IMG/VR virus record: IMGVR_UViG_3300032236_001304
Location: 24,443 to 88,442 of that record
Length of the DNA: 64,000 bases
Source: a virus
Strand: one strand, 5' to 3'
Numbering within the stretch: the first letter of the stretch is position 1; every line of letters starts with the position of its first letter. Both the position numbers and the translations under genes were made by a program. The notes under the pieces are model-generated. The model did not search any database, had not been told where the DNA came from, and was given only the letters and a program-made list of their open reading frames with translations. Below, piece after piece: positions 30,568-58,925 of this stretch.

Positions 30568-31581
30568 ATGTTTGATTTATTAGTTACAACCGGAGCAGGT
30601 AATGTTCCGATGGGTGGAAGTGATATATGGGTAAATAATTTTTTAGAAAATGTAGTACCATTTTTAAATTACGATACTGTATTATTAATTGATGGTAGAA
30701 TGCCTAATGGATTTGATCCTGATTCTATTCCGTGTCAATTTTGTTTTTCAAAAGAACAACCTCTATTAGTAGAACCGCTTTTAAGAAATTGTAGAAGAAT
30801 ACATTTTTTACATAACAATTATTATCGTAGAGATGAATTATGGGAATATAAACATAAATTTCATACAATATTTTGTCACGCTTACATCAAAGAAATTATA
30901 AACACTAATGTAGATTTAGGATTAGATAGAGTATACTTACCTACTACAATGGATTTACAATGGGAACAGGATGTAATGAATCAATGTAAACAAATTGTTT
31001 GGATTGGGTGTAATGATGGTTTGGTACAAAAAGATTTTAAAAATAAAACAATACAAATACCAAATTATTATGAGTTTCAAATCCGTAATGAATATAATTG
31101 GAATACAGATAAAATAGGATATGCAGCACGTAGTGAGACAAGAAAGTGTTTTCATTTTTTAGATAAACATAAAGGATACGTTTGTACAGACTGGATGGGA
31201 TATGAAAATTTAAAAGAAGGATTAAATTTAGATTTGAAAAAGGTAAGATTTTATCCATATAATTTGGATAATCACAAAAATTTCTTTAACTTAGACTTTA
31301 CGATATTTCACGGTTGTTATGTAAACGAACCTTTTGGTTATTCTATATTTAACGCAGTAGATTATGGTAAGCTTCCAATACTAAACAAATATTGGATGCC
31401 AAGAATACCATACAAATATAGAGCATCAACAAAAGAAGAATTTAATAAAATGTATGAAATAATGTGTAATGATTTTGAAGTTGAAAGACAATATCAATTC
31501 AAACTATTAAAAGAAGCATTATCTATATATGATAATAAAAATGAATGGATAATGAAAATAGTTAATCTGTTAAATAAATGA
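30568..31581 (+). CDS. GT-B-type glycosyltransferase-like protein
   Basis: A 337-residue protein resembling GT-B glycosyltransferases. The N-terminus VTTGAGNVPMGGSDIWVNNF (read with GGS as a donor-side Gly loop) is followed by IHFLHNNYY. The C-terminal half has FHGCYVNEPFGYSIFNAVDYGKLPI (about residues 248-272, two adjoining pieces), in which E-PFG(Y)S..NA..YG matches the 'E.fg....Ea.a.G.PvI' nucleotide-sugar loop. It follows the tail fiber by 10 nt and overlaps the next gene by 4 nt. The donor sugar and acceptor are unknown; fiber glycosylation is one possibility. Confidence 0.6.
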   Translation: MFDLLVTTGAGNVPMGGSDIWVNNFLENVVPFLNYDTVLLIDGRMPNGFDPDSIPCQFCFSKEQPLLVEPLLRNCRRIHFLHNNYYRRDELWEYKHKFHTIFCHAYIKEIINTNVDLGLDRVYLPTTMDLQWEQDVMNQCKQIVWIGCNDGLVQKDFKNKTIQIPNYYEFQIRNEYNWNTDKIGYAARSETRKCFHFLDKHKGYVCTDWMGYENLKEGLNLDLKKVRFYPYNLDNHKNFFNLDFTIFHGCYVNEPFGYSIFNAVDYGKLPILNKYWMPRIPYKYRASTKEEFNKMYEIMCNDFEVERQYQFKLLKEALSIYDNKNEWIMKIVNLLNK

Positions 31582-32315
31582 AAAAAAAATTATTAGTTGT
31601 AGGATGTTCATATTCCGCAAAAGCAAAACATAATGAATATATTGTATGGTCGGATTTTTTAGAACAGGATTTAGATATAGAAATAGATAATTTTGCAGAA
31701 CATGGAGCTAGTAATATTTTAATACGAAGAATATTACAAACAAAATTAGCAGAAAAAAAATATGATTATGTAATTGTTCAATGGAGTACAATTGATAGAT
31801 GGGATTATCCTAAAACAACATATCCAACGTACCACCCATTTGGTTCAGATACATCGGCATCAGGATATAAAGATGCTTTTTATATGCACTATTATAATAG
31901 TTATGGAGCAATTATGGATACATTAGATAATATTATTTTAGCACAATATATGTTAGAAAAATACAATACACCATATACAATGATTTCAATGGGTAATTTA
32001 TTTGAAATGGAAGCTTCAATAGAAGCAATTAAAATATTATTAACCAATAAAGGAGATTATACTACAATTAAAACTAATAATATTTTAAATAATACACCCA
32101 ATAATTCAGATTATGATAATATTAGTTCAGTATTAAAACTTATAGATTTTTCTAAATTTAATTTTACAACAATTCCAAATAATTATTTTGGTGGAGGAAT
32201 GATTGAATTTTTATTAGAAAAAGGAGATGCACCACAATTTAAATTTCATTATAATACTGAACAACATAAAATTTTTTCGGATGAATTTATAAAACCAATT
32301 TTACAAAAAATATAA
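31578..32315 (+). CDS. SGNH-like protein (GCSYS), catalytic Asp not evident
   Basis: A 245-residue protein with an SGNH/GDSL-type N-terminus: VVGCSYSAK places the nucleophile Ser at residue 11, and NFAEHGASN (about residue 43) provides the G-x-x-N block. YVIVQWSTIDRW is the usual strand after it. The expected C-terminal Asp-x-(x)-His is unclear: the end reads FKFHYNTEQHK, with no Asp before the His. It may therefore be an altered or non-hydrolytic member. It is the first of six SGNH-like genes in the window and overlaps the upstream glycosyltransferase by 4 nt. Confidence 0.65.
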   Translation: MKKKLLVVGCSYSAKAKHNEYIVWSDFLEQDLDIEIDNFAEHGASNILIRRILQTKLAEKKYDYVIVQWSTIDRWDYPKTTYPTYHPFGSDTSASGYKDAFYMHYYNSYGAIMDTLDNIILAQYMLEKYNTPYTMISMGNLFEMEASIEAIKILLTNKGDYTTIKTNNILNNTPNNSDYDNISSVLKLIDFSKFNFTTIPNNYFGGGMIEFLLEKGDAPQFKFHYNTEQHKIFSDEFIKPILQKI

Positions 32316-32322
32316 TATAAAA

Positions 32323-33159
32323 ATGGAAGAAAATAAATTATATATAATAACCGGTGGGGATTCGTTTAGTACGAATACACAAAATATGGATAATATGCAT
32401 TCATTGAGAGCATTATTAACATCAACAAATATAAACTATTTTAATCATTTAGAATATGATTATAGATCAAATGGAATTAATGCAGAATTTTTTAATTTAG
32501 GTTACCCATCGGCAGGAAATCATTATATTTTAGATACCGTAAAAGATAAAGTTAATGAATTATTATCAAATGGAATTGAAGCAAAGAATATTATAGTTTT
32601 TACTCAATTTACATATTTTATGAGAAATTTAGAATCATTAGATACTGAAAAAATTATAAAAAAAGAACATATTGCAGATTATTATCAATTACACCAAATA
32701 AATTATTCAAAAGATGAAATATATAATATTGTATATAAACATTTAACTGATATACTTGATTTTGGTAAATGGTTAGATGAGAAAAAAGATATTAAATTCA
32801 AATTCTTTTTTCCACATGATGTATTTAATGTTAAAAATAATATATTACAATTATTATTAAATAGAAATGAAAAAATAAAACAAAAAATATTAGAATTAAA
32901 ACCATATTTTTTGTATAATGATCCAAATACATTAGCGGGAATATACGAAAATTATATCAAAAGTAATCATGATAATATATGGTCAGCATATGTATCTAAT
33001 ACCGATTTACATTATAATTCAATTGTATATTATTATTGGTATATAGAAAAAATAAAACCATTTATATTTCCACAAGAAAATGTTAAACATATAATAGAAG
33101 AAGAAGAATTAGAACAACAAAAAGAAGAACTTAAAAGAATTTTTTTAAAAAAATTATAA
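32323..33159 (+). CDS. SGNH/GDSL hydrolase-like protein
   Basis: A 278-residue SGNH-type protein, a fold used by esterases and O-acetyl/acyl transferases. Block I is TGGDSFSTN (Ser at about 14), block III is NLGYPSAGNHYIL (about residue 60, G-x-x-N) and the C-terminal block is SNTDLHYNS (Asp-Leu-His). The FTQFTYFMRN segment takes the place of the usual W-S/T strand. The gene is extremely AT-rich. It begins 7 nt after the previous SGNH-like gene and is directly followed by a methyltransferase. Substrate unknown. Confidence 0.7.
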   Translation: MEENKLYIITGGDSFSTNTQNMDNMHSLRALLTSTNINYFNHLEYDYRSNGINAEFFNLGYPSAGNHYILDTVKDKVNELLSNGIEAKNIIVFTQFTYFMRNLESLDTEKIIKKEHIADYYQLHQINYSKDEIYNIVYKHLTDILDFGKWLDEKKDIKFKFFFPHDVFNVKNNILQLLLNRNEKIKQKILELKPYFLYNDPNTLAGIYENYIKSNHDNIWSAYVSNTDLHYNSIVYYYWYIEKIKPFIFPQENVKHIIEEEELEQQKEELKRIFLKKL

Positions 33160-33915
33160 ATGATAACAAATAAAGATTACATTAAAGAATTTATTTCTAA
33201 TAATCAAGAAATAGATGATTACGGAGACCAGGTTTTATTAAGTGTTCCATATCGATGGTCACACGGTGCTACAGATGACCATTTAGGTGACGGTTTAATT
33301 ATATATTCACTTATTCAATATATGAGAGCAAAGGTATGTGTTTGTTTAGGAAGTGGTGGCGGATTTATACCAAGAATTATGACACAGGCTAGATATGATT
33401 TATGGAATCAAAATATATTTGAAGGTAATGGTGATTTTAATCATGGTGATATTGGATGTACTTATATTGTAGATGCTGCAAATGGAATCGGTGGTAATGT
33501 AAATTGGTTAAAAGAAGAATCATTCTTTAGAAGAACATTTTGGCCTAGAATTATAAACGATACAACCGCAAATGCATTTCATAATTACTTTGTATTGAAT
33601 GATATTAAGATAGATTATTTACATATTGATGCAGGGCATAGTTATGAAAATGTAAAAGAAGATTTTGATTTATACTCTCAATTGATGAGTGAAAATGGAA
33701 TCATTTCTATACATGATACTGACCCTAATTATGCAGATAAATACATAGTGACAAATGAAGTTAAAGATAGGGGTGATTTTGATGATTGGAATGGACCAAT
33801 TCAATTAGCAAAAGAAATAGATACTACAAAATGGGAGGTATTTAATTTATTTAATTTTGGTATATTAAAAAATAAACCAGCATCAACTGGATTAACATTG
33901 GTAAGAAAAAAATGA
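33160..33915 (+). CDS. Class I SAM-dependent methyltransferase
   Basis: A 251-residue methyltransferase of the Methyltransf_24 / cephalosporin-hydroxylase-like type that methylates small molecules or sugars. The SAM site is VCVCLGSGGGFIPRIM (about residues 58-73, motif I). The acidic and downstream motifs are IDYLHIDAGHSYENVKEDF (about residues 147-165), where 'iD~~HiDa.Hsye.v..D~' is the family signature, followed by GIISIHDTDP. It starts 0 nt after an SGNH-like gene and overlaps the next by 4 nt. Sugar O-methylation fits the surrounding glycan genes; this is inference. Confidence 0.8.
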   Translation: MITNKDYIKEFISNNQEIDDYGDQVLLSVPYRWSHGATDDHLGDGLIIYSLIQYMRAKVCVCLGSGGGFIPRIMTQARYDLWNQNIFEGNGDFNHGDIGCTYIVDAANGIGGNVNWLKEESFFRRTFWPRIINDTTANAFHNYFVLNDIKIDYLHIDAGHSYENVKEDFDLYSQLMSENGIISIHDTDPNYADKYIVTNEVKDRGDFDDWNGPIQLAKEIDTTKWEVFNLFNFGILKNKPASTGLTLVRKK

Positions 33916-34760
33916 TAAGATTAGTTACAGTAACAGGTAGTAGAACAAACACATTAAAACATATGTTAAATCACTATAAAAATATGGTGGATGAAATGTA
34001 TGTTGTTGTATATGAATGGGATGGATTTAGTACATATGATGAAGTAGAAAAAATTGTAAAAGAATTTCCAACTGCACAAATTATAAAAAGAACAACTAAA
34101 GAAAAGTTTAATTGGGAATATGTAACTTACTTATATAATCAAACTAAAATGTTATTTCCTAACGATTGGTGGATTATTTCGGATGATGATGAATTTCAAG
34201 TGTATTCAAAAGTAATTTCAGATATTATAAAAATATGTGATGAAAGTGGATATGAATTTGTAACCGGCGGATTTGTAGATAGAATAGGTAAGAACGGTAC
34301 ATTTGCTGAAATAAAAGAAGATTCTAATCTATGGGAGTTATTTCCAATGGTGGGATTTTTTAGATATCCTTTAAGTGGAGCATGTCCTAATAAAGTAACG
34401 ATGTGTAAAGGATATATAGAACTTACTCCTGGTCAACATTATGCAAAAATAGATGGACAAACCACTTGGAAATGGCAAGGATGGAATCATCCACTAAGAT
34501 TTCCAACAACTCAAAACTTTACACAAGTACATCATTTTAAATGGGATAGTACAGTCTTAGATAGATTACAGGATGTTGCAAATGTTGGGCAAGTATATTC
34601 TTACTCAAAAGAATATCAAGAAATGTACGATGCTATAAAACTAAATAATTTTAAAATTGATATTTATGATGAGAGATTTTTAATGGAAGAAGTTAAAACA
34701 CCAACATATTGGTCATACAAAAATTGGAACAAACTTTCTAAAATAATACTCTCCATTTAA
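33912..34760 (+). CDS. GT-A-type glycosyltransferase-like protein
   Basis: A 282-residue putative glycosyltransferase. The N-terminus RLVTVTGSRTNTLKHMLNHY resembles the start of GT2-like/DUF glycosyltransferases, and WWIISDDDEFQVY (about residues 85-97) provides a D-x-D type metal site. Later segments include GACPNKVTMCKGYIEL and QVHHFKWDSTVLDRL (about residue 200), in which a His in 'vHHfkW' is often a late metal ligand in such enzymes. It overlaps the methyltransferase by 4 nt. A 35 nt gap after it contains a Bacteroidetes-type promoter, so it ends the transcript started at the tail fiber. Confidence 0.65.
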   Translation: MIRLVTVTGSRTNTLKHMLNHYKNMVDEMYVVVYEWDGFSTYDEVEKIVKEFPTAQIIKRTTKEKFNWEYVTYLYNQTKMLFPNDWWIISDDDEFQVYSKVISDIIKICDESGYEFVTGGFVDRIGKNGTFAEIKEDSNLWELFPMVGFFRYPLSGACPNKVTMCKGYIELTPGQHYAKIDGQTTWKWQGWNHPLRFPTTQNFTQVHHFKWDSTVLDRLQDVANVGQVYSYSKEYQEMYDAIKLNNFKIDIYDERFLMEEVKTPTYWSYKNWNKLSKIILSI

Positions 34761-34792
34761 TTTGGTTTTTTAAATAAAATTTGTTACATTTA
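34761..34792 (+). promoter_or_regulatory. Bacteroidetes-type promoter (TTTG-N20-TACATTTA)
   Basis: TTTG at 34761-34764 and TACATTTA at 34785-34792, again 20 nt apart, match TTTG/TAnnTTTG with one mismatch in the -7 element. The chosen ATG at 34796 is 3 nt downstream. This is the only promoter I can support for the 24-gene run to 58925. Confidence 0.45.
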
Positions 34793-34795
34793 AGT

Positions 34796-36277
34796 ATGGT
34801 TAATCATAAATTAGCAATCATTGTACCATATAGAGATAGACGTGATCATTTAGATACGTTTATTCCACATATGAAGGAATTTCTTAAAGATAAAGGAATT
34901 GCTTACAAAATATTTGTCATTGAACAATCTGATGATAAACCTTTTAATTATGGAAAACTTTGTAATGCAGCATTTAGTTTAATAAAAGATGATTTTGATT
35001 ATTTTTGTTTTCATGATGTAGACCAATTACCAATTAATGATAGTTGTGATTATTCATATAAAGAATATCCAGTACATTTAGCAACTAGAGCTTCTGCACA
35101 TAATGATAGATTACCTTACTTACAATATTTTGGTGGTGCAGTTATTTTTACTAAAGAAGATTTTGAAAAAATTAATGGTTATTCAAATGAATACTATGGA
35201 TGGGGATATGGTGATATAGATTTAATATTTAGATGTTCTCAAAAAGAATTAGATGTAGATTATGTGTATGCATATCCAAAAGTAAATAGTGAATATGAAA
35301 TTGGTGAAATGGAAGAAACGGATTCATTAAAATCAGAAAAAATACATTCAATAAAATTTGATGGAGAAACATTTTTAGAAATTAAACCAAACAAATTTTT
35401 AAAAAGTTTAACATCAGATAGTTTTACCGTTTCAATGTGGATTAAACCAGAAGATAATTTATTGAAACAACAATACATTTTAAGTTGGCCGGGATTTAAT
35501 TCAGGTGTATCATTAAATTTAGATAATCAATTAATTTTCAATTTTTGGAACTCACAAAAAATTTATTATTACAATTATAAAAAAATTAAACCAAACGAAT
35601 GGAATCATTTAATTGTTAATGTAAACTTCGATGATAATAAATTAAAAATGTGGTTAAATGGAATTGAATTACAACCAAACAAAGATGCATCGGTTAATTT
35701 TAAAACACCATTATTTGATTATTCGGAATCAAACATTTATATAGGATGTGGTTCAATTAATAAAGAATTTTATACAGGTGAATTAAGTAATCTTTATATG
35801 TTTGATTATACTTTAACACCAGGTGAAATAGAAAAATTATATTTGAATGGATTATATTTAAACAAATTTTTACAAACAAAATTTGAACCTGTGGTAAGAT
35901 ATGAATTTGATAACTTTTATAAACAATATTTTATAGATAAAAGCAAAACCCATAATCACGCTAAAGTATTTGGAAAAGCAGGAACAGATTATTTAAAATT
36001 AGTATCAGAAGTAACAATAGAAAAAGTATCAGAAATTCCAATACCACATAGAGTAGCAGGTGAATATCAATCATTAGAGCACGATGGTGATTTAGATATC
36101 AAAGATAAGTTTAATGGATTTGATCCTGATACATTAGAAAATAAAAAGATTTTCTTTGATGATATATTTTCAAAAAGATTTTCTACGGATAAAATAGGAT
36201 TGAGTTCTCTTAAATTTAAATTAATTGAAAATGAAGAATTTGATAATAAAACAAATTGGATTAAAGTAATATTATAA
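34796..36277 (+). CDS. GT7 galactosyltransferase-like protein with inserted LamG-like domain, copy 1 (degenerate motif)
   Basis: A 493-residue protein related to animal-type beta-1,4-galactosyltransferases (GT7). Residues 5-15 read KLAIIVPYRDR, DVD at 74-76 is the metal motif, and QYFGGAVIFTKEDFEKINGYS leads to YYGWGYGDID near 134-141. Intact GT7 enzymes have WGWGxEDDD there; here Glu and the middle Asp are lost (GDID), so catalysis may be altered. A LamG/concanavalin-like domain (about 184-385: SIKFDGETFLEIKP, FTVSMWIKP, LYMFDYTLTPGEIEKLYLNG) then interrupts the fold, and the GT7 C-terminal part resumes with QSLEH and GLSSLKFKL. ATG 34796 is chosen over TTG 34781 because it follows the promoter and opens the conserved domain. 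Confidence 0.8.
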   Translation: MVNHKLAIIVPYRDRRDHLDTFIPHMKEFLKDKGIAYKIFVIEQSDDKPFNYGKLCNAAFSLIKDDFDYFCFHDVDQLPINDSCDYSYKEYPVHLATRASAHNDRLPYLQYFGGAVIFTKEDFEKINGYSNEYYGWGYGDIDLIFRCSQKELDVDYVYAYPKVNSEYEIGEMEETDSLKSEKIHSIKFDGETFLEIKPNKFLKSLTSDSFTVSMWIKPEDNLLKQQYILSWPGFNSGVSLNLDNQLIFNFWNSQKIYYYNYKKIKPNEWNHLIVNVNFDDNKLKMWLNGIELQPNKDASVNFKTPLFDYSESNIYIGCGSINKEFYTGELSNLYMFDYTLTPGEIEKLYLNGLYLNKFLQTKFEPVVRYEFDNFYKQYFIDKSKTHNHAKVFGKAGTDYLKLVSEVTIEKVSEIPIPHRVAGEYQSLEHDGDLDIKDKFNGFDPDTLENKKIFFDDIFSKRFSTDKIGLSSLKFKLIENEEFDNKTNWIKVIL

Positions 36278-36287
36278 AATAAAGTAT

Positions 36288-36554
36288 ATGGCAAAAGAAG
36301 TAAAAACCGATAACTTAAGTATCGAAGAAAGAACAGTTTTGGCTTTAGAAAGACAAGCAAAAGCATATGAAAGAATGGCTGGTGCACAAGAAGACTTAGC
36401 TGATTGGTTTCATGGATTCGATAGAAAGACTTGGACTGAAAAGTTAGAGTGGTACTTACATGAGTTCTATCAAATTATGAAAACTAAGCAAGTAGGTGGT
36501 TCTATATCTAGACCTGATAGAGGTTATGAGAGAGAAGCAGATGAGCAAAAATAA
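36288..36554 (+). CDS. Small helical protein between GT7 copies, unknown function
   Basis: An 88-residue charged, helical protein: SIEERTVLALERQAKAYERM (about residues 11-30) then QEDLADWFHGFDRKTWTEKL. I recognise no family. It begins 10 nt after the first GT7 gene and overlaps the second by 14 nt. Its codon pattern looks less AT-extreme than that of the first GT7 gene. It could be an adaptor for the transferases; nothing in the sequence tests this. Confidence 0.65.
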   Translation: MAKEVKTDNLSIEERTVLALERQAKAYERMAGAQEDLADWFHGFDRKTWTEKLEWYLHEFYQIMKTKQVGGSISRPDRGYEREADEQK

Positions 36555-37962
36555 AAAACTAGCAGTTGTAGTTCCTTATAGAGATAGGAAATCACATTTA
36601 GATATTTTCATAGAATATATGGAAACCTATTTAAATGAATATGATTATTCTATTTACATCATCGAACAAAATGATGACAGACCTTTTAATAGAGGTAAAC
36701 TTCTTAACATTGGTGCAAAGGTAGCAATGAAAGAGGGATGTGATTATTTTGCGTTTCATGATGTTGATATGTTACCACAACCTGGTGTTGATTATTCCTT
36801 TGCAGATGTTCCTACACATTTATCTACCGAATTAGATGGTGATGTTCCATTTTTAGATTACTTTGGTGGAGTTACATTATTTAACGTACAGGATTTTAAA
36901 ATCATTAACGGATATTCAAATGAGTATTGGGGTTGGGGATTTGAAGATGATGACCTATTATATAGATGTATTGGTAAAGGATTATCATTAGAAACTAAAA
37001 AGATAGGATTACCAGAAAAAGAATTTTTAATTAACTATTTTAAATTTAATGGTTCATCATCTTACATTAGAATACCATACAAAAATATGAGTTCGGTATT
37101 TAGTGGTGATTTTACTATTTCAATGAAAATAAAACCGGAAGATTGTAAAATAAATCAAAACGTAGAGTTTGATGAATATTATGCAGTATCAATTCCAGGT
37201 AGAAATACAGGTATATCATACACATCATTTAAAAGATATAAATCAGAAATTTGGGATAAGGAAGGCAATTCAAACTCAATTCAATCAGATATATTAGGAG
37301 AAGTTTGGTCACATTTAGTTATGGTTAAAGTTGATGATAAATTATCATTTTACCTTAATGGTGAATTAATTGAAGAAAAGGAAATTGGATTGGAAATATT
37401 TAATTACACTACCGATTATTTTTATATTGGTGTAGGTAATCCAAATGAAGAAATAAATAAATTTTATTTTAAAGGATTAATTTCAGAATTTGCAGTTTGG
37501 AACATTGGATTAGATGATAACAATGTAAAGGAAATATATGAAAACTCGTATTATAAATCAATTCTAAATGATTATAGAAGATATAATAAATCTAAATATT
37601 TAAAATGTTATTATGATTTTAAAAACTTTAGAGATAATGTAATTCAGGATTTGAGTGGTAATAAAAATAATGGTTTTATTTATAACTGTGAAGATGGTTA
37701 TTTGATTAATAAATTTGAAACTGAAATTGTAGTTCCAACAAGAAGAGATGGAAAATTCAAAACACTTAAACATAAATCAAATTCAACAATTGGTAATAGT
37801 TGGGTTCATTATGAAACAAGAAAAAACCAAAAGAGATTTTATAATGAAATGAAAGGAAACATTGTAGATTTGAATATAGATGGGTTAAATAGTTGTAGAT
37901 ATAAATTAATAGATGAAGAACAACTTACTAACAAAACTAAATTAATTAAAGTAGAATTATAA
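36541..37962 (+). CDS. GT7 galactosyltransferase-like protein with inserted LamG-like domain, copy 2
   Basis: A 473-residue paralog of the previous transferase with all GT7 motifs intact: LAVVVPYRDRKSH at 7-19, FHDVDML with DVD at 74-76, DYFGGVTLFNVQDFKIINGYS, and YWGWGFEDDDLLYRC near 129-143. A LamG-like domain follows (about 168-350: FKFNGSSSYIRIP, FTISMKIKP, WSHLVMVKVDD). The GT7 C-terminus then resumes with RRDGKFKTLKH, whose His matches the metal His of animal enzymes, and DGLNSCRYKLID, equivalent to the DGLNSLxY end of B4GALT. ATG 36541 is chosen over upstream 36496 because it begins the conserved domain and fits the 14 nt overlap. Confidence 0.85.
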   Translation: MSKNKKLAVVVPYRDRKSHLDIFIEYMETYLNEYDYSIYIIEQNDDRPFNRGKLLNIGAKVAMKEGCDYFAFHDVDMLPQPGVDYSFADVPTHLSTELDGDVPFLDYFGGVTLFNVQDFKIINGYSNEYWGWGFEDDDLLYRCIGKGLSLETKKIGLPEKEFLINYFKFNGSSSYIRIPYKNMSSVFSGDFTISMKIKPEDCKINQNVEFDEYYAVSIPGRNTGISYTSFKRYKSEIWDKEGNSNSIQSDILGEVWSHLVMVKVDDKLSFYLNGELIEEKEIGLEIFNYTTDYFYIGVGNPNEEINKFYFKGLISEFAVWNIGLDDNNVKEIYENSYYKSILNDYRRYNKSKYLKCYYDFKNFRDNVIQDLSGNKNNGFIYNCEDGYLINKFETEIVVPTRRDGKFKTLKHKSNSTIGNSWVHYETRKNQKRFYNEMKGNIVDLNIDGLNSCRYKLIDEEQLTNKTKLIKVEL

Positions 37963-40807: not shown

Positions 40808-41610
40808 TGACAAACGAATTAATAGAATTTAAAGATAATTTTTTAGTAAACTTTTTTGAAGAAACAAGATATAATACATCCAAAAAACCAGGATTATTAA
40901 AGAATTTATTTCAAAATGATTTAACGGTATATGCTCGTTTTAAAATGAGTAATATGAAAAAAGAACGTACTGCAATTTTTGCTAAGCAAGGTTGTCATAG
41001 TGGTGCTTATTTTGAAAATCAAGATGGTAATATGAAATTTCGTTGTACAATTTTTACAGCGGAACCTGATAGTGGTAATTATTCTGACCATTTTCAAATG
41101 ATAGAATATTACCCAAAGGAAGAAGAATTATTTAATGAACACTATGTAATATATCAGTTAGACCATACAAATAAATTATTAAAAACTTGTTTTGATGGTG
41201 AATGGAAAGAAATGAAATGGGAAGGTGAAGTATGTGATTATACAAATGTTCCTTTTTGGGTAGGGGCAGGTGGTCCTTGGTATGATGACCCTTCATTTCA
41301 TTGGATGTTTGAAGGATACTTTTATGATTTTTCTATATTTAATAATGTACTTAGTGAAGATGATTGTAATTTAATTATTGATAATAAAGAAAATTATTTA
41401 GATAATATAGAATTAAAAGATAAATGTGTTACATCATTAGATTTTACAAAATGGAATCGTTTTAAAGTATGGGATAAAACAGGTAATGGTAATTTTGGTT
41501 TTATTGATGAATGGCATTTTATAAATGTACAAGAAAGATTAAATGAATTATTAGCTGGGAATAAATTAAAAAGTTCAACTATTGCAAATATTAAGCAAAC
41601 ATTGATTTAA
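40807..41610 (+). CDS. Stand-alone LamG/concanavalin-like protein
   Basis: A 267-residue protein that is essentially one LamG-like beta-sandwich: TVYARFKMSNMKKERTAIF, then YVIYQLDHTNKLLKTCFDG and MFEGYFYDFSIFNNVLSEDD (about residues 168-187). That last piece matches the 'f.G.i.d~~i~n~~Ls~~e' strand of LamG_3 domains. No catalytic domain is attached. It lies between a radical SAM and an SGNH-like gene with 1-6 nt spacing, and may be a sugar-binding partner for neighbouring enzymes. The same domain type is inserted in the three GT7 proteins. Confidence 0.7.
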   Translation: MTNELIEFKDNFLVNFFEETRYNTSKKPGLLKNLFQNDLTVYARFKMSNMKKERTAIFAKQGCHSGAYFENQDGNMKFRCTIFTAEPDSGNYSDHFQMIEYYPKEEELFNEHYVIYQLDHTNKLLKTCFDGEWKEMKWEGEVCDYTNVPFWVGAGGPWYDDPSFHWMFEGYFYDFSIFNNVLSEDDCNLIIDNKENYLDNIELKDKCVTSLDFTKWNRFKVWDKTGNGNFGFIDEWHFINVQERLNELLAGNKLKSSTIANIKQTLI

Positions 41611-51294: not shown

Positions 51295-52553
51295 TGAAAC
51301 AAAAAATTAATTTTTATTTTGATGATTTTTTTGATGATTTTACACCTGTACCAAACGGTGAAACAAAAGATAGTAAATTATTTGATTTTAGTATACCAGA
51401 TTATCATCAAATGGTTAAATCATCAAACTCACAAACAAATTTTAATGAGTTTTTAAATAATAGATTTACTAAAGATGGTAAAAATTATATTTACTACGAT
51501 TCAAATTATGAAATTTCATATTCAAATGAATTAAAAGAAGATGCTAAAAATTTATATTTGATAATGCCTAAAATGCATTTTTATGGATTAGATTCATATT
51601 TAGATTTTTATCAAACAAAATTAGAACAAGGATTTTTATTATTATTTGCATCTTTTCATGAAATTGGTGATTATAATAATTTTTATAATTGGATAAATAA
51701 TAATCAATATAAAGATAATATTATAATAATATCAATAGCTAGTAATTTACAATCGGTTGTAAATTGTAGATGTATATTTTTTCCATTTTTATTATATGAT
51801 TTTGGTAATGATTTTACATTTAATGATACAGAAAATACAGTATGTATTGAAGATGATTATTTAAATACATCAAAAGAAAAATTATTTGTAAGTTGGAATA
51901 AAAATACAAGAAGATTTCATAGGTTAATTTTTTATGAATTTTTAAAGTTAAATAATTTATTAAATAATTACGTTTCATTTTTAGATTTTCCTGAAAAAGA
52001 ATTATATTTGCATTATTTAACAGATCCAAATTATAGTACAGTAAGTTCTTATTTAAAAGATTATATAGAAAATGGAGCAGATCGAATTGATTTAGATTTA
52101 CATGGTATACCTAATAGTGAAGTACAATCATATGTTACAAATAGAAATAATCGAAAAGAATTTTATGCAAAATCATATTTCACAATTGTTACAGAAACAA
52201 ATTTTTATGAAAAATTTAATGTACTTACTGAAAAAATATTAAGACCTTTAGCAAATTTTCATCCATTTATAATAATAGGACCAGTAGGTTCTTATCAAAT
52301 TTTAAAACAGGTTGGATTTAAAATTCCAAAAATAATAGATTATGAATTAATTGATGAAACACATAATCCAAATTTAAGATTAATTAGAATATTCAAAGAA
52401 ATAAAAAAACTAATATCTTATTTGGAAACAAACGGAAAATTACCTAACTTTGATATAGAAGACTTATATCATAACCAAAATTTATTATTAAATACAAATA
52501 AAATAAATGGTTGGACAACTTTATATAGTCGAATATATAATATAATTAATTAA
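51294..52553 (+). CDS. TEK/HPFI-family glycosyltransferase-like protein, copy 3
   Basis: A 419-residue paralog adjacent to copy 2. The family motifs are LFVSWNKNTRRFHRLIF (NR....HR variant NTRRFHR, about residues 198-214), FTIVTETNFY, VLTEKILRPLANFHPFIIIG (about 312-331) and LKQVGFKIPK. The N-terminus KINFYFDDFFDDF resembles that of copy 2 (KKINFIYEYEQDG), so the pair probably arose by tandem duplication. Base composition is among the most AT-rich in the window. A GT-B-type role is an inference. Confidence 0.55.
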   Translation: MKQKINFYFDDFFDDFTPVPNGETKDSKLFDFSIPDYHQMVKSSNSQTNFNEFLNNRFTKDGKNYIYYDSNYEISYSNELKEDAKNLYLIMPKMHFYGLDSYLDFYQTKLEQGFLLLFASFHEIGDYNNFYNWINNNQYKDNIIIISIASNLQSVVNCRCIFFPFLLYDFGNDFTFNDTENTVCIEDDYLNTSKEKLFVSWNKNTRRFHRLIFYEFLKLNNLLNNYVSFLDFPEKELYLHYLTDPNYSTVSSYLKDYIENGADRIDLDLHGIPNSEVQSYVTNRNNRKEFYAKSYFTIVTETNFYEKFNVLTEKILRPLANFHPFIIIGPVGSYQILKQVGFKIPKIIDYELIDETHNPNLRLIRIFKEIKKLISYLETNGKLPNFDIEDLYHNQNLLLNTNKINGWTTLYSRIYNIIN

Positions 52554-52561: not shown

Positions 52562-53506
52562 ATGAATAAAACAGTTTTAATAACAGGATGCAGTGGGTTA
52601 GTAGGAACTCATTTAACAAATATTTGTATATCTCGTGGATATAAAGTAATAGGAACGGATATTAAAAAATCTACAAATATAATAGAAGCTAAAAATTTTG
52701 TATTTGCATTTAGAGATTTAACCAAAGATGGTGAAATAGAAAAATTATTAGAGCAATATCAACCAGATGCAGTATTTAATTGTTTTGGTATTAAAGGTTC
52801 ACCTTTAAAAGCAAAAAATGAACCTGTTGATTTTCTATATCCATCATTTAAAATAAATACAGAACTTATTAATCAATGTTCAAAACGAGATATTTGGTTA
52901 GTATTTGTTAGTTCAGTTGGAGTATACGCTCCTGCAGAAAAATTTGTAGAAGATAGTGTATGGAAAACCCTCCCATCAGAAGCAGACTGGTTTCCTAGTT
53001 GGAGTAAGAGAATGGGTGAAATTTTATTAGAAGCATATAAGATTCAATACGGATATAAAAAATGGACAATCATAAGACCAGCAAACATATTTGGTGAATA
53101 TGATGACTTTAGTGGTAATGGTACAGTTATAGGAACTATGTGCAAAAAAGTATATGAAGCTACCGATTATTTAGATGTGTGGGGTGATGGAACACCAACT
53201 AGAGATTTTGTTTATGCAGCAGATGTTGCTGAGGCATTATTAAAAGCATGGGAAGATAAAATACATGATGTTGTAAATTTTGGTTCTGGTGAAACAATTA
53301 CTATTGAATCTATGATTAGAGCTTTATTAAAAATAGCACAAAAAGAAAATATTGATTTAGTATTTGATAATACAAAACCAAATGGTGATATGTGTAGACA
53401 AATGGATATTACAAAACAAAAAAAATATGATTTATTACCAATTCGTTCATTTGAATGTGGATTAGGAACAACATATGATTATTACATAAAAACATTAAAA
53501 AAATAA
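52562..53506 (+). CDS. NAD-dependent epimerase/dehydratase-like SDR, catalytic Tyr not in place
   Basis: A 314-residue extended SDR of the GDP-fucose-synthase/epimerase type. The dinucleotide loop is LITGCSGLVGTH at the N-terminus and RDFVYAADVAEALL is the usual C-terminal segment. At the active site the family has Tyr-x-x-x-Lys; here the Lys sits in FPSWSKRMGE and position -4 is Pro, so no Tyr is seen. The next gene shows the same loss. It may be a non-canonical or inactive form, or the Tyr may come from elsewhere. It is followed 1 nt later by its paralog. Confidence 0.8.
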   Translation: MNKTVLITGCSGLVGTHLTNICISRGYKVIGTDIKKSTNIIEAKNFVFAFRDLTKDGEIEKLLEQYQPDAVFNCFGIKGSPLKAKNEPVDFLYPSFKINTELINQCSKRDIWLVFVSSVGVYAPAEKFVEDSVWKTLPSEADWFPSWSKRMGEILLEAYKIQYGYKKWTIIRPANIFGEYDDFSGNGTVIGTMCKKVYEATDYLDVWGDGTPTRDFVYAADVAEALLKAWEDKIHDVVNFGSGETITIESMIRALLKIAQKENIDLVFDNTKPNGDMCRQMDITKQKKYDLLPIRSFECGLGTTYDYYIKTLKK

Positions 53507-53507: not shown

Positions 53508-54485
53508 ATGATAAATAAAGATGCAAAAATACTAATAACGGGTGGTTCTGGATTAGTAGGTCAAAACTTAACAAACCGATTACACAAGGAGGGTTACATA
53601 AACATTAGAGTTAATTTACACAAAAGAGGTGTAAGAAATCCAATTGAAGGAGTGGAGTATGTTCACTTTGATTTGAAAACATACGAAGGTTGTTTAGATG
53701 CAACTAAAGGAGTAGATGTAGTTTACCATTGTGCAGCAAGTACATCAAACGCAGTAGACACAGTAGTTGACCCTTTAGCACATGTTACACCAAACGTAGC
53801 AATGAACAATTTTTTAATTGATGCCAGTTGGAGAAATAAGGTTCAACATTACATCTTTTTATCATCTAATACAGTCTATCCACCAAAAGGAGATAAGCCA
53901 GTAGTGGAGACCGATTTCCTATTTGATGAACCATATCCTGTTTATTTCCCTGTGGGTTGGATGAAAAGATACGCAGAAGTTCAATGTGAGTTATATGCAA
54001 AGTATTTACCCGTTAAAATGAAATGCACGGTGATTAGACCTGCAAACTTATTTGGACCACATGATAAATATGATTTCAATAAGTGTCATGTGACTCCTGC
54101 AACAATTAGAAAAGTAGCAGATAAGATGGATCCAATTCCAGTGTGGGGTGATGGTAGTGAGTTGAGAGATTTATTATACATTGAAGATTTTGTGCAAGCA
54201 TTACAAATTGTAATGGAAAAAGAAAAAGAAGATTACCAAGTTTATAATATTGGTTCTAACAGAGTGTATTCAGTATTGGAAGTATTAGAAGCAATGAAAA
54301 GAATTGCAAACTTTGATGCACCAACTGAATTTATTAAGGGTAAACCTTCAATGATTCCGACTCGTAAAATTGATTCATTTAAGATTTATGATAACTTAGG
54401 ATGGCAAGCAACTACATCATTAGAAGATGGTTTAGCAAATGCATATGAATGGTATTTAGAACATAAAGATGAGTTTAATAATTAA
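53508..54485 (+). CDS. NAD-dependent epimerase/dehydratase-like SDR, second paralog
   Basis: A 325-residue SDR: ILITGGSGLVGQNLTNRL provides the nucleotide loop, IRPANLFGPHDKYD and LRDLLYIEDFVQAL the substrate-side segments. The active-site Lys is in VGWMKRYAE, but position -4 is Val, not Tyr, as in its neighbour. The gene is visibly less AT-extreme than 49801-52553, which may mean a different origin. It overlaps an SGNH-like gene by 1 nt. A nucleotide-sugar substrate is likely. Confidence 0.8.
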   Translation: MINKDAKILITGGSGLVGQNLTNRLHKEGYINIRVNLHKRGVRNPIEGVEYVHFDLKTYEGCLDATKGVDVVYHCAASTSNAVDTVVDPLAHVTPNVAMNNFLIDASWRNKVQHYIFLSSNTVYPPKGDKPVVETDFLFDEPYPVYFPVGWMKRYAEVQCELYAKYLPVKMKCTVIRPANLFGPHDKYDFNKCHVTPATIRKVADKMDPIPVWGDGSELRDLLYIEDFVQALQIVMEKEKEDYQVYNIGSNRVYSVLEVLEAMKRIANFDAPTEFIKGKPSMIPTRKIDSFKIYDNLGWQATTSLEDGLANAYEWYLEHKDEFNN

Positions 54486-55309
54486 TGAAAGGTATTTTAT
54501 TCATAGGTGATAGTTTTACTTGGGGACAAGGATTACATTATTATTCCGAATTAAATAATGTAGAATACATAACCCAAGAAATGCCAACATTTAGTATAGA
54601 ACACTTAACTAAAGCACATATTGATTTTAAAAATACATTAAGATTTCCAAGATTAGTAGCAAATCATTTTAATACATTTGAAATAACACGTGACGGAAAT
54701 GGTGGAGATGAAGATATATTAATTGAATATGGTAATTGGATTTTAAGTGAAGAATGTATTAATGGTAATCAAAGAATATTTAAAGATGATATATCATATC
54801 TTATATATCAAACAACCAGTCCATTTAGAAATGAATACTCTTTTGTATTAAACGGTGAGACGATAAAAATATCAAAACAAACAATAGATGAATATTTTAC
54901 AGGAATGATGGATAAACAACATTTAGTTGAAAAAATATTAAAACATATTTCTATTGAGTATAATAATGATATTGATGCATTTTTTGATAATCATATAAGA
55001 TTAAATTTAATTAGAATAAAAGAATTATTATTAAAATTTGAAAATGTTGGTATAAAAACTTACATATTAAATTGGTTACATTATTATGATAAATTTATTA
55101 AAGATGATAATTGGTTATTAGAAAAAACAATTAATATAGAATATAACAACGAAACTTTTTCTTGTTTTCAAGACGCTATTAACAAATATAGGGAATTAGG
55201 ATTATCAGGTGATACATCACTACCACCAAATCAAGATGGGCATCTTAGTAAACTTGGAAATAGATTAATTGCAGATTCAATTATTAAAAAAATACAAAAT
55301 AATATATGA
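54485..55309 (+). CDS. SGNH/GDSL hydrolase-like protein (GDSFTWGQG)
   Basis: A 274-residue SGNH protein. Block I IGDSFTWGQGLHYYSE places the Ser at residue 10, DGNGGDED provides a G-rich block III, and the C-terminal block is NQDGHLSKLGNRLIADSI (Asp-Gly-His). It is very similar at its N-terminus to the next gene and to 58017 (GDSFTWGQGLHYYSE / GCSFTWGEGLHYYSD), so three members are close paralogs. It overlaps the next gene by 4 nt. Confidence 0.8.
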   Translation: MKGILFIGDSFTWGQGLHYYSELNNVEYITQEMPTFSIEHLTKAHIDFKNTLRFPRLVANHFNTFEITRDGNGGDEDILIEYGNWILSEECINGNQRIFKDDISYLIYQTTSPFRNEYSFVLNGETIKISKQTIDEYFTGMMDKQHLVEKILKHISIEYNNDIDAFFDNHIRLNLIRIKELLLKFENVGIKTYILNWLHYYDKFIKDDNWLLEKTINIEYNNETFSCFQDAINKYRELGLSGDTSLPPNQDGHLSKLGNRLIADSIIKKIQNNI

Positions 55310-56169
55310 AAGGAATTATATTTGCAGGAGATAGTTTTACTTGGGGACAAGGATTACATTATTATTCAGAATTACCAAACATAAATTCTGAAAATTTTCA
55401 ATTTGATATTAATTTATTAACTGAAGCACATTTACAATATATTAAACGAAATAGATTTCCAAGATTAGTGGCAGACCAATTTGATACATTTGAAGTAGTT
55501 AGAAAATTAAATGGTGGTGGAAGTTACGATATTATTGAATTTTTAGAAAATTTTGAAACATATAGAGATAGTGATAATTTAAATACCAAATCTTTTTCAT
55601 ATAGCGATATAGATTATGTTGTATTTCAATTTACCGAAACATATAGAGGACAATTATGTTTTTTAGATGATGAGGGAAAATATGGATGGATTAGTGCAGA
55701 TCAAAATGGCAATGGAGTGCATCCACCCCATTTTTTAAATTATTTAGAAAAATATTATAATTCTAATCCAAAATTATTTTTAGAAGATTATCCAAATATT
55801 TTATGTAAAAAAGTTGAAACCTTATTAAAAAATATTGAAGAAAAAGGTATAAAAACAATGGTAATTTCTTGGAGAAAAGATATAAAAGAAGCATTGTATA
55901 ATAATCCATTTTTAAAAGAAAGATTATTAAGTTTTAAACTTCATAATACAGAAGTTGATACTTTAGAAGATTTTGAACATGTTAGAGATGATAATTCATC
56001 AGGATATACAATACATACTGATTTATCATTAATAAATAAATTTGGCAAAATGATAGGAGATGGTCATGTTTCAAAAAGAGGAATTAAAATAATAGCAGAT
56101 TCAGTAATTAAAAAAATAGAAGAATATGAGCAGCCCACAATACACCCCATACAAAGACGCATTATCTAA
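55306..56169 (+). CDS. SGNH/GDSL hydrolase-like protein (GDSFTWGQG), paralog
   Basis: A 287-residue paralog of the preceding protein: IIFAGDSFTWGQGLHYYSE with Ser 10, KLNGGGSYD as block III and GDGHVSKRGIKIIADSVIKK as the Asp-x-His end. The two share the KKI(Q/E) helix at the end. Its last 44 nt overlap the start of the E1 beta-like gene, an unusually long overlap for this window. Acyl/acetyl transfer or removal on sugars is the family's usual role. Confidence 0.8.
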   Translation: MKGIIFAGDSFTWGQGLHYYSELPNINSENFQFDINLLTEAHLQYIKRNRFPRLVADQFDTFEVVRKLNGGGSYDIIEFLENFETYRDSDNLNTKSFSYSDIDYVVFQFTETYRGQLCFLDDEGKYGWISADQNGNGVHPPHFLNYLEKYYNSNPKLFLEDYPNILCKKVETLLKNIEEKGIKTMVISWRKDIKEALYNNPFLKERLLSFKLHNTEVDTLEDFEHVRDDNSSGYTIHTDLSLINKFGKMIGDGHVSKRGIKIIADSVIKKIEEYEQPTIHPIQRRII

Positions 56170-56671
56170 TGCAATGACTAATTTAGCAGAATTAGAAGAT
56201 TCTGTTTTTATTGGACAGCAAATTGTTTATCAAGGTAATCCTATGAGTACAACATTAGGTGGTGTACCAAAAGATAAAATGATTGAAGTTCCAGTAATGG
56301 AAGAATCTCAAATGGGAATGAGTTTAGGAATGGCAATGGCAGGTAAAAGAGTTGTTACATTTTATCCTCGTTGGGATTTCATTATATGTGCTACAAACCA
56401 ATTAGTAAATCACGTTGATAAGATTGGATTAATGAGTGATGGTAAATGGAAACCAAACTTAATTATCAGATTGGGTAAAGGAAGTGATAAACCATTAGAT
56501 CCAGGTCATCAACACAGAGGTAACTATTTTGAAGAATTTAAATCAATGTGTAAAAATATTGAATTTCATGATTTAAAAACACCTACTGATATTGAATTAG
56601 CTTACAAATATGCAACAAAAGAAGGTGGAATTCATGTATTAGTAGAATATCCAGAATTATATTATGCTTAA
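56126..56671 (+). CDS. TPP-dependent E1 beta-like subunit (transketolase pyrimidine domain only)
   Basis: A 181-residue protein equal to the pyrimidine-binding domain of E1 beta/transketolase. YTPYKDALSNAM opens the domain, VPVMEESQMGMSLGMAMAGKRVV (about 55-77, two pieces) contains the catalytic Glu (59/60), and FYPRWDFIICATNQLVNH and HQHRGNYFEEF complete it. The usual C-terminal domain is absent. Its partner is very likely the E1 alpha-like protein at 47934; separately each would lack half of the active site. It begins within the last 44 nt of the SGNH gene and overlaps the next gene by 8 nt. Confidence 0.82.
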   Translation: MSSPQYTPYKDALSNAMTNLAELEDSVFIGQQIVYQGNPMSTTLGGVPKDKMIEVPVMEESQMGMSLGMAMAGKRVVTFYPRWDFIICATNQLVNHVDKIGLMSDGKWKPNLIIRLGKGSDKPLDPGHQHRGNYFEEFKSMCKNIEFHDLKTPTDIELAYKYATKEGGIHVLVEYPELYYA

Positions 56672-58016
56672 TTTATTGTATGATAAATGGGTATTAACTG
56701 TAAATTTTCCAAATTGCATATCTAAAGAAGTTTCAAATTATATAGAATTTGAATATCTTAAAGATCATTTAGAAGATTATAATTATACAGATGCATCTTT
56801 TAGATTAGGAGATATATTTGCGCAAAAACATAATAGTTGGCAAAATAATTTAGGATTTAAAAGACATAGTCCAAATATAAATTATATTACTTATAATGAA
56901 TCTACACAACTAGAAAATTGGATATATCCAATAGAACCATGGGGACATATAATGTATTCATTGAATTTATATTCTGAAGTAGAATATGCTAATTTTTTTG
57001 AATTAATACCTAAAAAAATAATTAAAGATATAAATAATGATAAAGGATTAATTGTTATAAATTATGCACATGAAGGGTGGATTAGTGATTTTTCATTAAA
57101 AGGATTTTATATGGGTATTAAAAATACCGGTATAAAAATTGATAATGTTGTATTAATGTTAAACGATTATAATTTAATTGATAAAATTAAAAAATTTAAA
57201 GAAGATTATAATATTAATAGTTTTCCAAAAATAATTAATTATTGTTATTATTTAACTGCATCTTCAAAACATTTTTATGATAAATACAAAGATAGTAATT
57301 TAAAAGCAAAAAACTATTTAGTAGATAAACCATTTAAATTTTTATGTTTAAATAGAAGATTAGAAACACATCGAGTAAAAATATTAACAGAATTATATGA
57401 TGAACTTAAAGATAATAGTTTAATATCATTTGATAAAACACTTATTACAAATGATGTTATTAATATGTTTGATGAAAACGCAGAAATAAAATATAAATTT
57501 GATAAATTACCAGAAAAAAGTATAGCAGATACTATTGATATTGCAGGAGCAAATGGTTATGCACATGAAGATTATTTAATTTATGCAGATAGTAAAATAA
57601 GTATAGTTACCGAAACTTCTTTTTATGATACAAATTCTTTTATAAGTGAAAAAGTATGGAAACCATTATTTCAATTTCATCCATTTATAATTGTAGGAAA
57701 ACCACATTTATTAAAATATCTTAAAGAAATTGGATTTAAAACATTTGATTGGTTATTTAATGAAGAATATGATAATATTGAAGATGACAATAAAAGAATG
57801 GATTTTATAATAAATGAAATTAAAAAAGTAAATAACTTAAGTAATGATGAAATTAATAATATTATTTACAAAAATTTTGATATATTAGAACATAATCATA
57901 ATCTATTAATAGAATTGGGTAGTAAAAGAGATGATATTGAAAAATTTATTTCTGAAAAAATTATAAAAAATAATTATACTTACATAGACATTTATAAAGA
58001 ATTAAATAAAATTTAA
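56664..58016 (+). CDS. TEK/HPFI-family glycosyltransferase-like protein, copy 4
   Basis: A 450-residue family member. FKFLCLNRRLETHRVKIL (about residues 226-243) is the NR....HR motif in its clearest form, ISIVTETSFYD precedes SFISEKVWKPLFQFHPFIIVG (about 325-345) and LKEIGFKTFDWLF. It ends in an Asn/Lys-rich tail. Ordering of the motifs is the same as in copies 2 and 3. Donor and acceptor cannot be read. It is bounded by the E1 beta-like and an SGNH-like gene. Confidence 0.58.
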   Translation: MLNLLYDKWVLTVNFPNCISKEVSNYIEFEYLKDHLEDYNYTDASFRLGDIFAQKHNSWQNNLGFKRHSPNINYITYNESTQLENWIYPIEPWGHIMYSLNLYSEVEYANFFELIPKKIIKDINNDKGLIVINYAHEGWISDFSLKGFYMGIKNTGIKIDNVVLMLNDYNLIDKIKKFKEDYNINSFPKIINYCYYLTASSKHFYDKYKDSNLKAKNYLVDKPFKFLCLNRRLETHRVKILTELYDELKDNSLISFDKTLITNDVINMFDENAEIKYKFDKLPEKSIADTIDIAGANGYAHEDYLIYADSKISIVTETSFYDTNSFISEKVWKPLFQFHPFIIVGKPHLLKYLKEIGFKTFDWLFNEEYDNIEDDNKRMDFIINEIKKVNNLSNDEINNIIYKNFDILEHNHNLLIELGSKRDDIEKFISEKIIKNNYTYIDIYKELNKI

Positions 58017-58925
58017 ATGAAAGGAATTATATTTTCGGGTTGTTCATTCACATGGGGAGAAGGATTACATTATTATTCTGATACTAAAAATTTAATGTTT
58101 AGTAAAAATCAATTTTTTGATATAAGAGATTATTCTGATTCTCATATTAAATTTAAAGATGCTAATAGATTTGCAAGATTAGTTGCAAATAATTTTGATT
58201 CTTGGGAAGTTGTTAATGCATATAATGGTGGTGGTATTTCTACTAATATAGATTCGTTACAAAGAAAATTTGGAATTGAACCATACAATAATCTATATGA
58301 AATTAAATATAATATAAATGATATATCTGCTCTTATATTTCAAATAACAGACCCACTTAGAGGACCGTTTTATATAGAATCTAAAAAAATAAAAAATAAA
58401 ATATATTCATTTGACACAATAAATGTAACTGATATTGATTCTAATAATGATTTATTAGCAGTTTGTGAAGAATTTGGTGTGGAAAATTTTGAAGAAATAT
58501 TAATAGAACAACATTATGAAAAAATAAAAAAATTTTTATCTTATTTTGAAAGTAAAAATATTGTAACAAAAGTAATATGTTGGCAAAAAGAAGTAGCAGA
58601 AGAATTTTTAAAATATGATTTTTTAAAAGATAGATGGATAACAATTAATTATAAAAATGAAAATATGAATTCATTTGAAGAATTATATAATAGTAATGAG
58701 TTATTTAATAATCAAGGATATTTTTGGAAAAAATATAAAGTTCAATTTAATGATTTACATTTATCTACATTTGGACACCGAATAGTAGCAGAATCTATTA
58801 TTGATAATTTAGAAAATGATATTAATTTTATTAAATTACATTATAATATAACAAATAATAAATTTAATAAAGTACAAATATTTGAAGGAGCTCAATCTGG
58901 TGAAAAAAGAAACAAACTTATATAA
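58017..58925 (+). CDS. SGNH/GDSL hydrolase-like protein (GCSFTWGEG)
   Basis: A 302-residue SGNH-type protein, close paralog of 54485 and 55306: IIFSGCSFTWGEGLHYYSD with Ser 10 and AYNGGGIST as block III. The C-terminal block reads QFNDLHLSTFGHRIVAESI (Asp-Leu-His). It carries about 30 extra C-terminal residues ending GAQSGEKRNKLI. It is the last gene of the 24-gene run; a candidate promoter motif follows within 10 nt. Confidence 0.78.
   Translation: MKGIIFSGCSFTWGEGLHYYSDTKNLMFSKNQFFDIRDYSDSHIKFKDANRFARLVANNFDSWEVVNAYNGGGISTNIDSLQRKFGIEPYNNLYEIKYNINDISALIFQITDPLRGPFYIESKKIKNKIYSFDTINVTDIDSNNDLLAVCEEFGVENFEEILIEQHYEKIKKFLSYFESKNIVTKVICWQKEVAEEFLKYDFLKDRWITINYKNENMNSFEELYNSNELFNNQGYFWKKYKVQFNDLHLSTFGHRIVAESIIDNLENDINFIKLHYNITNNKFNKVQIFEGAQSGEKRNKLI

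Follow-up and report, generated by a model that had tools for sequence, protein, structure and literature searches.

A syntenic glycan-enzyme cassette behind the tail fibre of uncultured aquatic phages as a candidate fibre-glycosylation pathway

We analysed a 64-kb stretch of DNA, hereafter the window, which is the terminal portion of the 88,442-base IMG/VR record IMGVR_UViG_3300032236_001304 of an uncultured freshwater virus of bacteria. It contains an island of 29 genes between the tail fibre gene and the gene of a conserved flanking protein, CTP53. There is good support for this phage encoding enzymes that build and decorate a glycan, and we consider it rather probable, from the sequence evidence assembled here, that the island is a soluble pathway for glycosylation of the fibre, probably expressed late together with it.

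Gene content and synteny of the island

The first-pass annotation had described about 29 genes beside the tail fibre with no gap above about 10 nt from 34796 to 58925, and this layout was recovered: all 29 genes (30568-58925) lie on the + strand, the largest intergenic gap being 20 nt across the whole island and 10 nt (36277 to 36288) within 34781-58925. Pfam and NCBIfam matches comprise GT7N, GT7C and LamG in three proteins, Methyltransf_24, three SDRs, RmlC, DegT, a 2-oxoglutarate (2OG) oxygenase, E1_dh plus Transket_pyr, and N_Twi_rSAM in three radical S-adenosylmethionine (radical-SAM) proteins. Eight glycosyltransferases are predicted, nine if the protein at 45494 is counted: one GT4-like, one GT2-like, three GT7 with an inserted LamG lectin domain (GT7-LamG) and three GT-B proteins of the TEK family (Table 1).

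The neighbourhood comparison proposed in that annotation as a way to define a conserved core was run on viral contigs, with 160 loci made of the best 80 of 227 stretches found with GT7-LamG copy c and the best 80 of 118 found with RSb, related or repeated contigs included. Cassette proteins having served as queries, the counts characterise the cassette itself and not how frequent it is. A syntenic core of GTB24, MT27, GT28, s30, two to three GT7-LamG genes, RSa and a LamG-like protein is kept in order over more than 100 viral contigs and stands after fibre genes in two or more backbones. RSa comes next after GT7 in 115/124 cases and GT28 next after MT27 in 105/114, s30 lies directly ahead of GT7 in 63/63, the LamG-like protein directly behind RSa in 38/38, and GTB24 directly behind the fibre in 23/36. 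Among phages, gene content varies only to the right of this core.

A second sample was collected with the N-terminal part of the fibre alone (best 80 of 170 relatives), 50 loci being informative, with 2.5 kb or more of sequence available behind the fibre. In 47 of these 50, the fibre is followed by cassette genes (two or more in 44, one in three), and GTB24 is the first of them in most fibre-derived loci. The three others have CTP53 behind the fibre (L284) or other cargo (L245 and L270). Since L169, L171 and L284 have CTP53 immediately after the fibre and so show the empty site, the island is optional and always inserted at one position. Judged by the baseplate protein at 7001 (38-42% identity), the window backbone is similar to those of Flavobacterium phage immuto, Microcystis phage Mel-JY01 and an uncultured 484-kb phage; the similarity to immuto makes a freshwater Bacteroidota host likely. 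Backbone relatives devoid of the island, part of what had been named beforehand as speaking against the proposal, do exist, namely L169, L171, L284 and the isolates immuto and Mel-JY01; the island is accessory cargo, and this does not contradict a glycan role.

Marine phages with another backbone have, in this order, a tail fibre (PHROG match), c8, c9, GT284, MT27, GT28, GT7, GT7, RSa and, further on, tail sheath and tail tube; the sheath is present in 25 loci, with MT27 visible in 19 of these. More distant phages (L139, L134, L142 and similar) carry the same radical-SAM genes behind fibre genes, with GT8-like genes replacing GT7-LamG.

Table 1. Features of the island and its flanks (window positions; all + strand entries as annotated)
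Feature	Position	Strand	Basis or remark
w22, 2OG-Fe(II) oxygenase	25890..26549	+	directly upstream of fibre; homologues inside island in relatives
TATTTATA, candidate late-promoter or start-site element	26541..26548	+	19 nt before tail-fibre start
Tail fibre (FIB), 1329 aa, candidate glycan acceptor	26568..30557	+	40% Ser in a 100-aa stretch near residues 434-534
GTB24, GT4-like glycosyltransferase, core	30568..31581	+	conserved motifs in alignment (inferred)
SGNH-fold esterase/acyltransferase	31578..32315	+	AlphaFold model and PDB fold matches
SGNH-like protein	32323..33159	+	hhalign to 31578 family, 98.9%
MT27, Methyltransf_24 methyltransferase, core	33160..33915	+	Pfam
GT28, GT2-like (GT-A) glycosyltransferase, core	33912..34760	+	match below curated cut-off
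GT7-LamG copy a, altered catalytic motif YGWGYGDID	34781..36277	+	Pfam, tree
s30, small conserved protein, core	36288..36554	+	neighbourhood conservation
GT7-LamG copy b, B4GALT-like GT7, LamG ahead of last GT7 segment	36496..37962	+	Pfam, B4GALT match, tree
GT7-LamG copy c	37962..39410	+	Pfam, tree
RSa, N_Twi radical-SAM protein, core	39410..40807	+	325 bits vs cut-off 170
Stand-alone LamG-like protein, core	40807..41610	+	below Pfam cut-off
SGNH-like protein	41617..42435	+	31578-family hidden Markov model, E 5e-19
SDR, NDP-sugar epimerase/dehydratase type	42432..43400	+	Pfam/NCBIfam
RSb, N_Twi radical-SAM protein	43402..44958	+	NCBIfam
RmlC-like dTDP-sugar epimerase	44958..45494	+	Pfam/NCBIfam
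Possible fourth TEK protein, marginal	45494..46639	+	53% probability over 54 columns
2OG-Fe(II) oxygenase	46626..47321	+	Pfam
Short DegT-type aminotransferase	47308..47937	+	Pfam/NCBIfam
TPP (thiamine pyrophosphate) enzyme, first half	47934..48569	+	Pfam, phrog_34187
RSc, N_Twi radical-SAM protein	48554..49804	+	NCBIfam
TEK, GT-B type glycosyltransferase	49801..51294	+	family membership
TEK, GT-B type glycosyltransferase	51294..52553	+	family membership
SDR	52562..53506	+	Pfam/NCBIfam
SDR	53508..54485	+	Pfam/NCBIfam
SGNH-like protein, GDSFTWG ... NGG ... DxH	54485..55309	+	motifs
SGNH-like protein	55306..56169	+	motifs, family
TPP enzyme, second half	56126..56671	+	Pfam, phrog_34187
TEK, GT-B type glycosyltransferase	56664..58016	+	AlphaFold model and PDB fold matches
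SGNH-like protein, last island gene	58017..58925	+	motifs, family
CTP53, conserved right flank, 1320 aa with nucleotidyltransferase domain	59099..63061	+	Pfam

Glycosyltransferases and modifying enzymes

All three GT7 copies exceed the Pfam cut-offs for GT7N and GT7C, and the GT7 part matched beta-1,4-galactosyltransferase 1 (E 1.6e-33). This match stops soon after WGWGxEDDD, and a second piece, insignificant alone, picks up past the LamG domain, which suggests that LamG is inserted within GT7. In the GT7-LamG tree, three clades coincide exactly with gene position (57, 75 and 24 sequences; support at least 0.99), thus the triplication predates the spread of these phages. Recent tandem duplication was consequently rejected, and the multiply duplicated families of the first-pass annotation stand as duplications, with the correction that the GT7-LamG copies are ancient paralogues kept by position. 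A cellular origin of GT7-LamG was also discarded, as most cellular matches span the GT7 part only; near-full-length matches in genome bins amount to seven contigs, of which four carry this cassette too and may belong to phages. Short contigs carrying the cassette (L179-L182) are binned as Flavobacteriales, Pelagibacterales and Gammaproteobacteria and are possibly phage contigs. Among isolate phage records, none matched the GT7-LamG, RSb, TEK or GT28 proteins.

The TEK family was assembled from gene neighbourhoods, a pattern scan for TEK 56664 having returned nothing. The proteins at 49801, 51294 and 56664 form one family with a GT-B-like fold. For the AlphaFold model of TEK 56664 (pLDDT 84.8, pTM 0.85), the PDB gave three matches at E<=0.001, two of them glycosyltransferases, followed mainly by GT-B proteins (TM-score about 0.35), a comparison that supports the GT-B fold class and not a substrate. 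The protein at 45494 was not confirmed as a full member, so that three of the four TEK/HPFI proteins initially proposed are retained and the fourth is marginal. GTB24 had no match to Pfam or PDB profiles, and its GT4-like assignment is read from conserved alignment motifs. PDB profile searches with TEK, GTB24, SGNH 58017 and GT8m (a family described below) gave no convincing match; for TEK and one SGNH family the matter was resolved by structure prediction.

The three radical-SAM proteins score 325, 311 and 267 bits against N_Twi_rSAM (NF033640; curated cut-off 170). Among isolate phages, RSa had matches only to distant radical-SAM genes in Vibrio phages (21-24% identity). Near the left end of the window but outside it, IscU-like and IscA-like genes (record 23501-24243; L175 8501-9243) precede a peptide-deformylase-like open reading frame (ORF); they are consistent with the needs of three radical-SAM enzymes, as an association only. 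The AlphaFold model of the SGNH protein at 31578 (pLDDT 83.1) had 47 PDB matches at E<=0.001; almost all of them are GDSL/SGNH esterases, including TesA, EstA and Axe2-type enzymes. The proteins at 32323 and 41617 tie to its family by profile, and the 54485/55306/58017 family more weakly (93%) with the S, N-G and H motifs kept; G-x-S and the C-terminal H are invariant in both families. The TPP enzyme consists of two halves of phrog_34187 (E1_dh and Transket_pyr) 7.5 kb apart at 47934-48569 and 56126-56671, which are also separate in relatives and form one single gene in cyanophages S-SM2 and P-TIM68. The DegT aminotransferase has 209 aa, about half the usual length, as in near relatives.

Altogether, the three twitch radical-SAM proteins, six SGNH-like proteins, three SDRs, RmlC, DegT, split TPP enzyme, oxygenase and methyltransferase of the first-pass annotation were confirmed, by scores above the curated cut-off for the first, by fold, profile links and kept motifs for the second, and by Pfam/NCBIfam for the others. 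Complete glycan synthesis is not supported, because the island has no sugar-1-phosphate nucleotidyltransferase and no confirmed 4,6-dehydratase; hence host nucleoside diphosphate (NDP)-sugars are probably needed.

Elsewhere in the record, 2OG-Fe(II) oxygenase-like genes stand in tandem (L174 10187-12600), two of them confirmed by Pfam and accompanied by one or two more, and a Nol/NodU-type carbamoyltransferase is encoded far upstream of the island (window 1473-3167), with homologues within island-like regions of some relatives (L091). Window positions 22723-25869 encode one 1048-aa protein fusing SbcD-like and SbcC-like domains.

Site of action, expression and candidate acceptor

Hydropathy revealed no convincing transmembrane segment or signal peptide in the island proteins, two weak peaks (in an SDR and a TPP half) being presumably buried strands or helices, and the island's Pfam annotations include no flippase, polymerase, lipid-carrier transferase or ligase. 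A cytoplasmic, protein-directed pathway fits best; recourse to host surface machinery is less likely.

The motif TATTTATA, reverse complement of the T4 late motif, lies 3-20 nt ahead of eight window genes that have an intergenic gap (3202, 12473, 17314, 19289, 25890, 26568, 59099 and 63106) and precedes no island gene. In the fibre-derived loci, it is found within 60 nt before 46/81 fibre ORFs, whereas cassette ORFs gave 0/247 (GTB24 0/51, MT27 0/45, GT28 0/39, GT7 0/71, s30 0/24, TEK 0/17) and RSa ORFs 2/14. Its presence before the fibre and not before core cassette genes weakly suggests that fibre and cassette may form one transcription unit, with TATTTATA as a candidate element. The T4 late motif TATAAATA itself was rejected as a signal since it is not enriched (18 found vs 32 expected), the useful signal being its reverse complement at gene starts. 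Scans for sigma-70 promoters and terminators were near chance.

The candidate acceptor, the fibre, has a Ser-rich shaft with no repeat domain of bacterial type and lies beside soluble glycosyltransferase genes, with the oxygenase w22 on its other side. Poly-Thr or (TP)n tracts occur in 12/4950 ORFs (10 contigs), all 12 directly behind a fibre, and these mucin-like ORFs are followed by their own glycosyltransferase-like or prolyl-hydroxylase-like gene. The GT8m family (307-338 aa; nine loci on seven contigs) stands solely directly behind mucin-like ORFs, one of its contigs (L065/L257) having a looser T-x-T-P tract. Moreover, both contigs that have long tracts carry a 2OG-FeII_Oxy_3 gene of prolyl-hydroxylase type immediately after the (TP)n ORF (Pfam E 2e-16 and 4e-18). 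The cassette-less L245 and L270 carry a mucin-like ORF, GT8m and a radical-SAM gene at this same site, which argues that fibre modification is linked to the site rather than to this cassette in particular.

We propose the following model. The SDRs, RmlC, DegT and TPP enzyme would re-tailor host NDP-sugars, from which the GT4-like, GT2-like, three GT7-LamG and three TEK transferases would build up a glycan on Ser/Thr-rich tail-fibre proteins, inside the cytoplasm and ahead of virion assembly; the growing chain may be held by the LamG inserts and the stand-alone LamG protein. Methylation, hydroxylation, redox modification and acylation of sugars or fibre residues would follow, carried out by the methyltransferase, 2OG oxygenases, N_Twi radical-SAM and SGNH proteins. 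The phage could gain a changed receptor binding or a shielding of the fibre. The analysis establishes the gene content, the folds of two families, the synteny, the adjacency to the fibre, the empty sites and the lack of membrane proteins; co-transcription with the fibre, the fibre's acceptor role, the chemistry of the glycan and the benefit are inferred.

The first-pass annotation left the target open between fibres and host surface; the lack of membrane or export proteins, the placement of TATTTATA and the mucin-like proteins behind the fibre favour fibres. Remodelling of the host surface, in which O-antigen or capsule is changed during infection to exclude other phages or to spare progeny adsorption to debris, keeps a minor but real share of probability. 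Published work interprets in this way the glycosyltransferases of pelagimyophage host recognition clusters (PMC7029224) and cyanophage sugar clusters in jumbo phages (PMC7824862), deoxysugar-type NDP-sugar enzymes (RmlC, SDR, DegT) are typical of O-antigens, and the TPP enzyme is common to S-SM2 and P-TIM68. Nevertheless, the membrane, polymerization and ligation functions noted above are missing from the island, the cassette is likely transcribed with the fibre gene, and adjacent mucin-like fibre proteins with dedicated enzymes would be left unexplained. A hot-spot that passively gathers cargo behind the fibre and serves no single pathway would account for the differing content right of the core and for the backbone relatives without island, but is improbable given the core order kept over more than 100 loci and the three GT7 copies holding position as three clades. 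Similarly, a small secreted saccharide or glycosylated metabolite, an idea of this kind having been raised for one cyanophage cluster (PMC7824862), is hardly more than a marginal candidate: carbamoyltransferase, radical-SAM, TPP and DegT enzymes occur in natural-product pathways too, yet the island has no exporter or carrier-protein gene and its fibre linkage is conserved. Hypermodification of phage DNA bases is very unlikely, for although DNA-acting phage glycosyltransferases are known (cited in PMC12619734), the cassette lies in the structural module beside the fibre in at least two backbones and has lectin inserts and many sugar-modifying families; the search for a base-hydroxylating pathway elsewhere in the genome was less than exhaustive.

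Several points weigh against fibre glycosylation. The phage is uncultured and the virion glycan is deduced from genes alone, soluble enzymes could also serve host surface-glycan pathways, and many loci are fragments of related phages. The motif TATTTATA is absent before 35/81 fibre ORFs and at some genes its distance from the start codon is down to 3 nt, which would be too short for a promoter, and the tightly packed cassette genes leave little space for it. The window fibre has no poly-Thr/(TP)n tract, though its shaft is Ser-rich, and such a shaft is also found in L245 and L270; thus the shaft alone does not track the cassette, and a simple link between the two is not supported. GT8m has no Pfam or PDB match, its assignment as a glycosyltransferase relying on a conserved DxD only.

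More tentatively, these phages might make mucin-like or hydroxyproline-rich fibre glycoproteins, Ser/Thr/Pro-rich fibres being hydroxylated and O-glycosylated by the virus via lectin-bearing GT7, with sugars then edited by radical-SAM and SGNH enzymes. If so, fibre hydroxylation and glycosylation would be a widespread route to fibre diversity that no isolate has yet shown. If fibre glycosylation is true, many uncultured aquatic phages sugar-coat their receptor-binding fibres by a phage-encoded pathway, adding to host range and immunity a chemical layer invisible in the fibre gene sequence alone, and the TEK, N_Twi radical-SAM, phage SGNH and GT7-LamG families gain candidate functions.

Comparison with known systems

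Mycobacteriophage virion glycosylation uses phage-encoded transferases. It is a known process (Freeman 2023, as cited in PMC12619734) and resembles the present case in linking glycosyltransferase genes to virion structural genes, virion proteins being the glycan acceptors there. It differs by its capsid and tail-tube acceptors; here the fibre is the candidate acceptor, many more modifying enzymes are present, and the system is known from genes alone. Four core glycosyltransferases are described for the moraphages, a group of large phages that infect freshwater Bacteroidota (PMC12619734).

In Gram-positive serine-rich repeat glycoprotein loci (Fap1, GspB), an adhesin is glycosylated intracellularly by clustered transferases and O-acetylated (PMC5207161, PMC5578698). 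The window likewise has a Ser-rich acceptor candidate gene beside soluble glycosyltransferases, but with a viral fibre instead of a cell-wall adhesin and with other transferase families; the accessory Sec genes (SecA2/SecY2, Asp) are not among the island Pfam annotations.

A comparable layout is that of the host recognition clusters of pelagimyophages, which gather fibres, glycosyltransferases and radical-SAM cassettes and are read as host O-chain modification (Zaragoza-Solas 2020, PMC7029224). Like those of pelagimyophages and cyanomyophages, the island lies in the structural module with a tail fibre, glycosyltransferases and radical-SAM genes; those clusters are however non-syntenic and hypervariable with GT8 most represented, in contrast to the syntenic core with GT7-LamG (PMC7029224). 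The flanks differ too, VrlC and gp14 there, fibre and CTP53 in the window, fibre and sheath in the marine type. The first-pass suggestion of an undescribed system thus holds for this particular combination: in the open-licence papers searched, no description of the GT7-LamG/N_Twi-rSAM/TEK/SGNH syntenic cassette was found and it seems undescribed, while related kinds, i.e., fibre-linked glycosyltransferase/radical-SAM clusters (PMC7029224) and mycobacteriophage virion glycosylation, are already known.

Unlike gtrABC-type O-antigen conversion cassettes, the island is devoid of membrane flippase and lipid-carrier transferase (Pfam) and of transmembrane segments (hydropathy). Jumbo-phage sugar clusters have been read as capsule modification (PMC7824862), and the sugar/lipopolysaccharide-type clusters of cyanophages S-SM2 and P-TIM68 share with the island the phrog_34187 TPP enzyme, SDRs and glycosyltransferases (PMC7824862); theirs nevertheless contain heptose-type genes, with the TPP enzyme in one piece and no GT7-LamG match, and not beside a fibre in the stretches compared. 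Finally, the GT7-LamG proteins share with B4GALT1/7 (GT7) the GT7N/GT7C domains, the DxD motif and, in most copies, xEDDD, and differ from them as soluble phage proteins with a LamG domain inserted ahead of the last GT7 segment.

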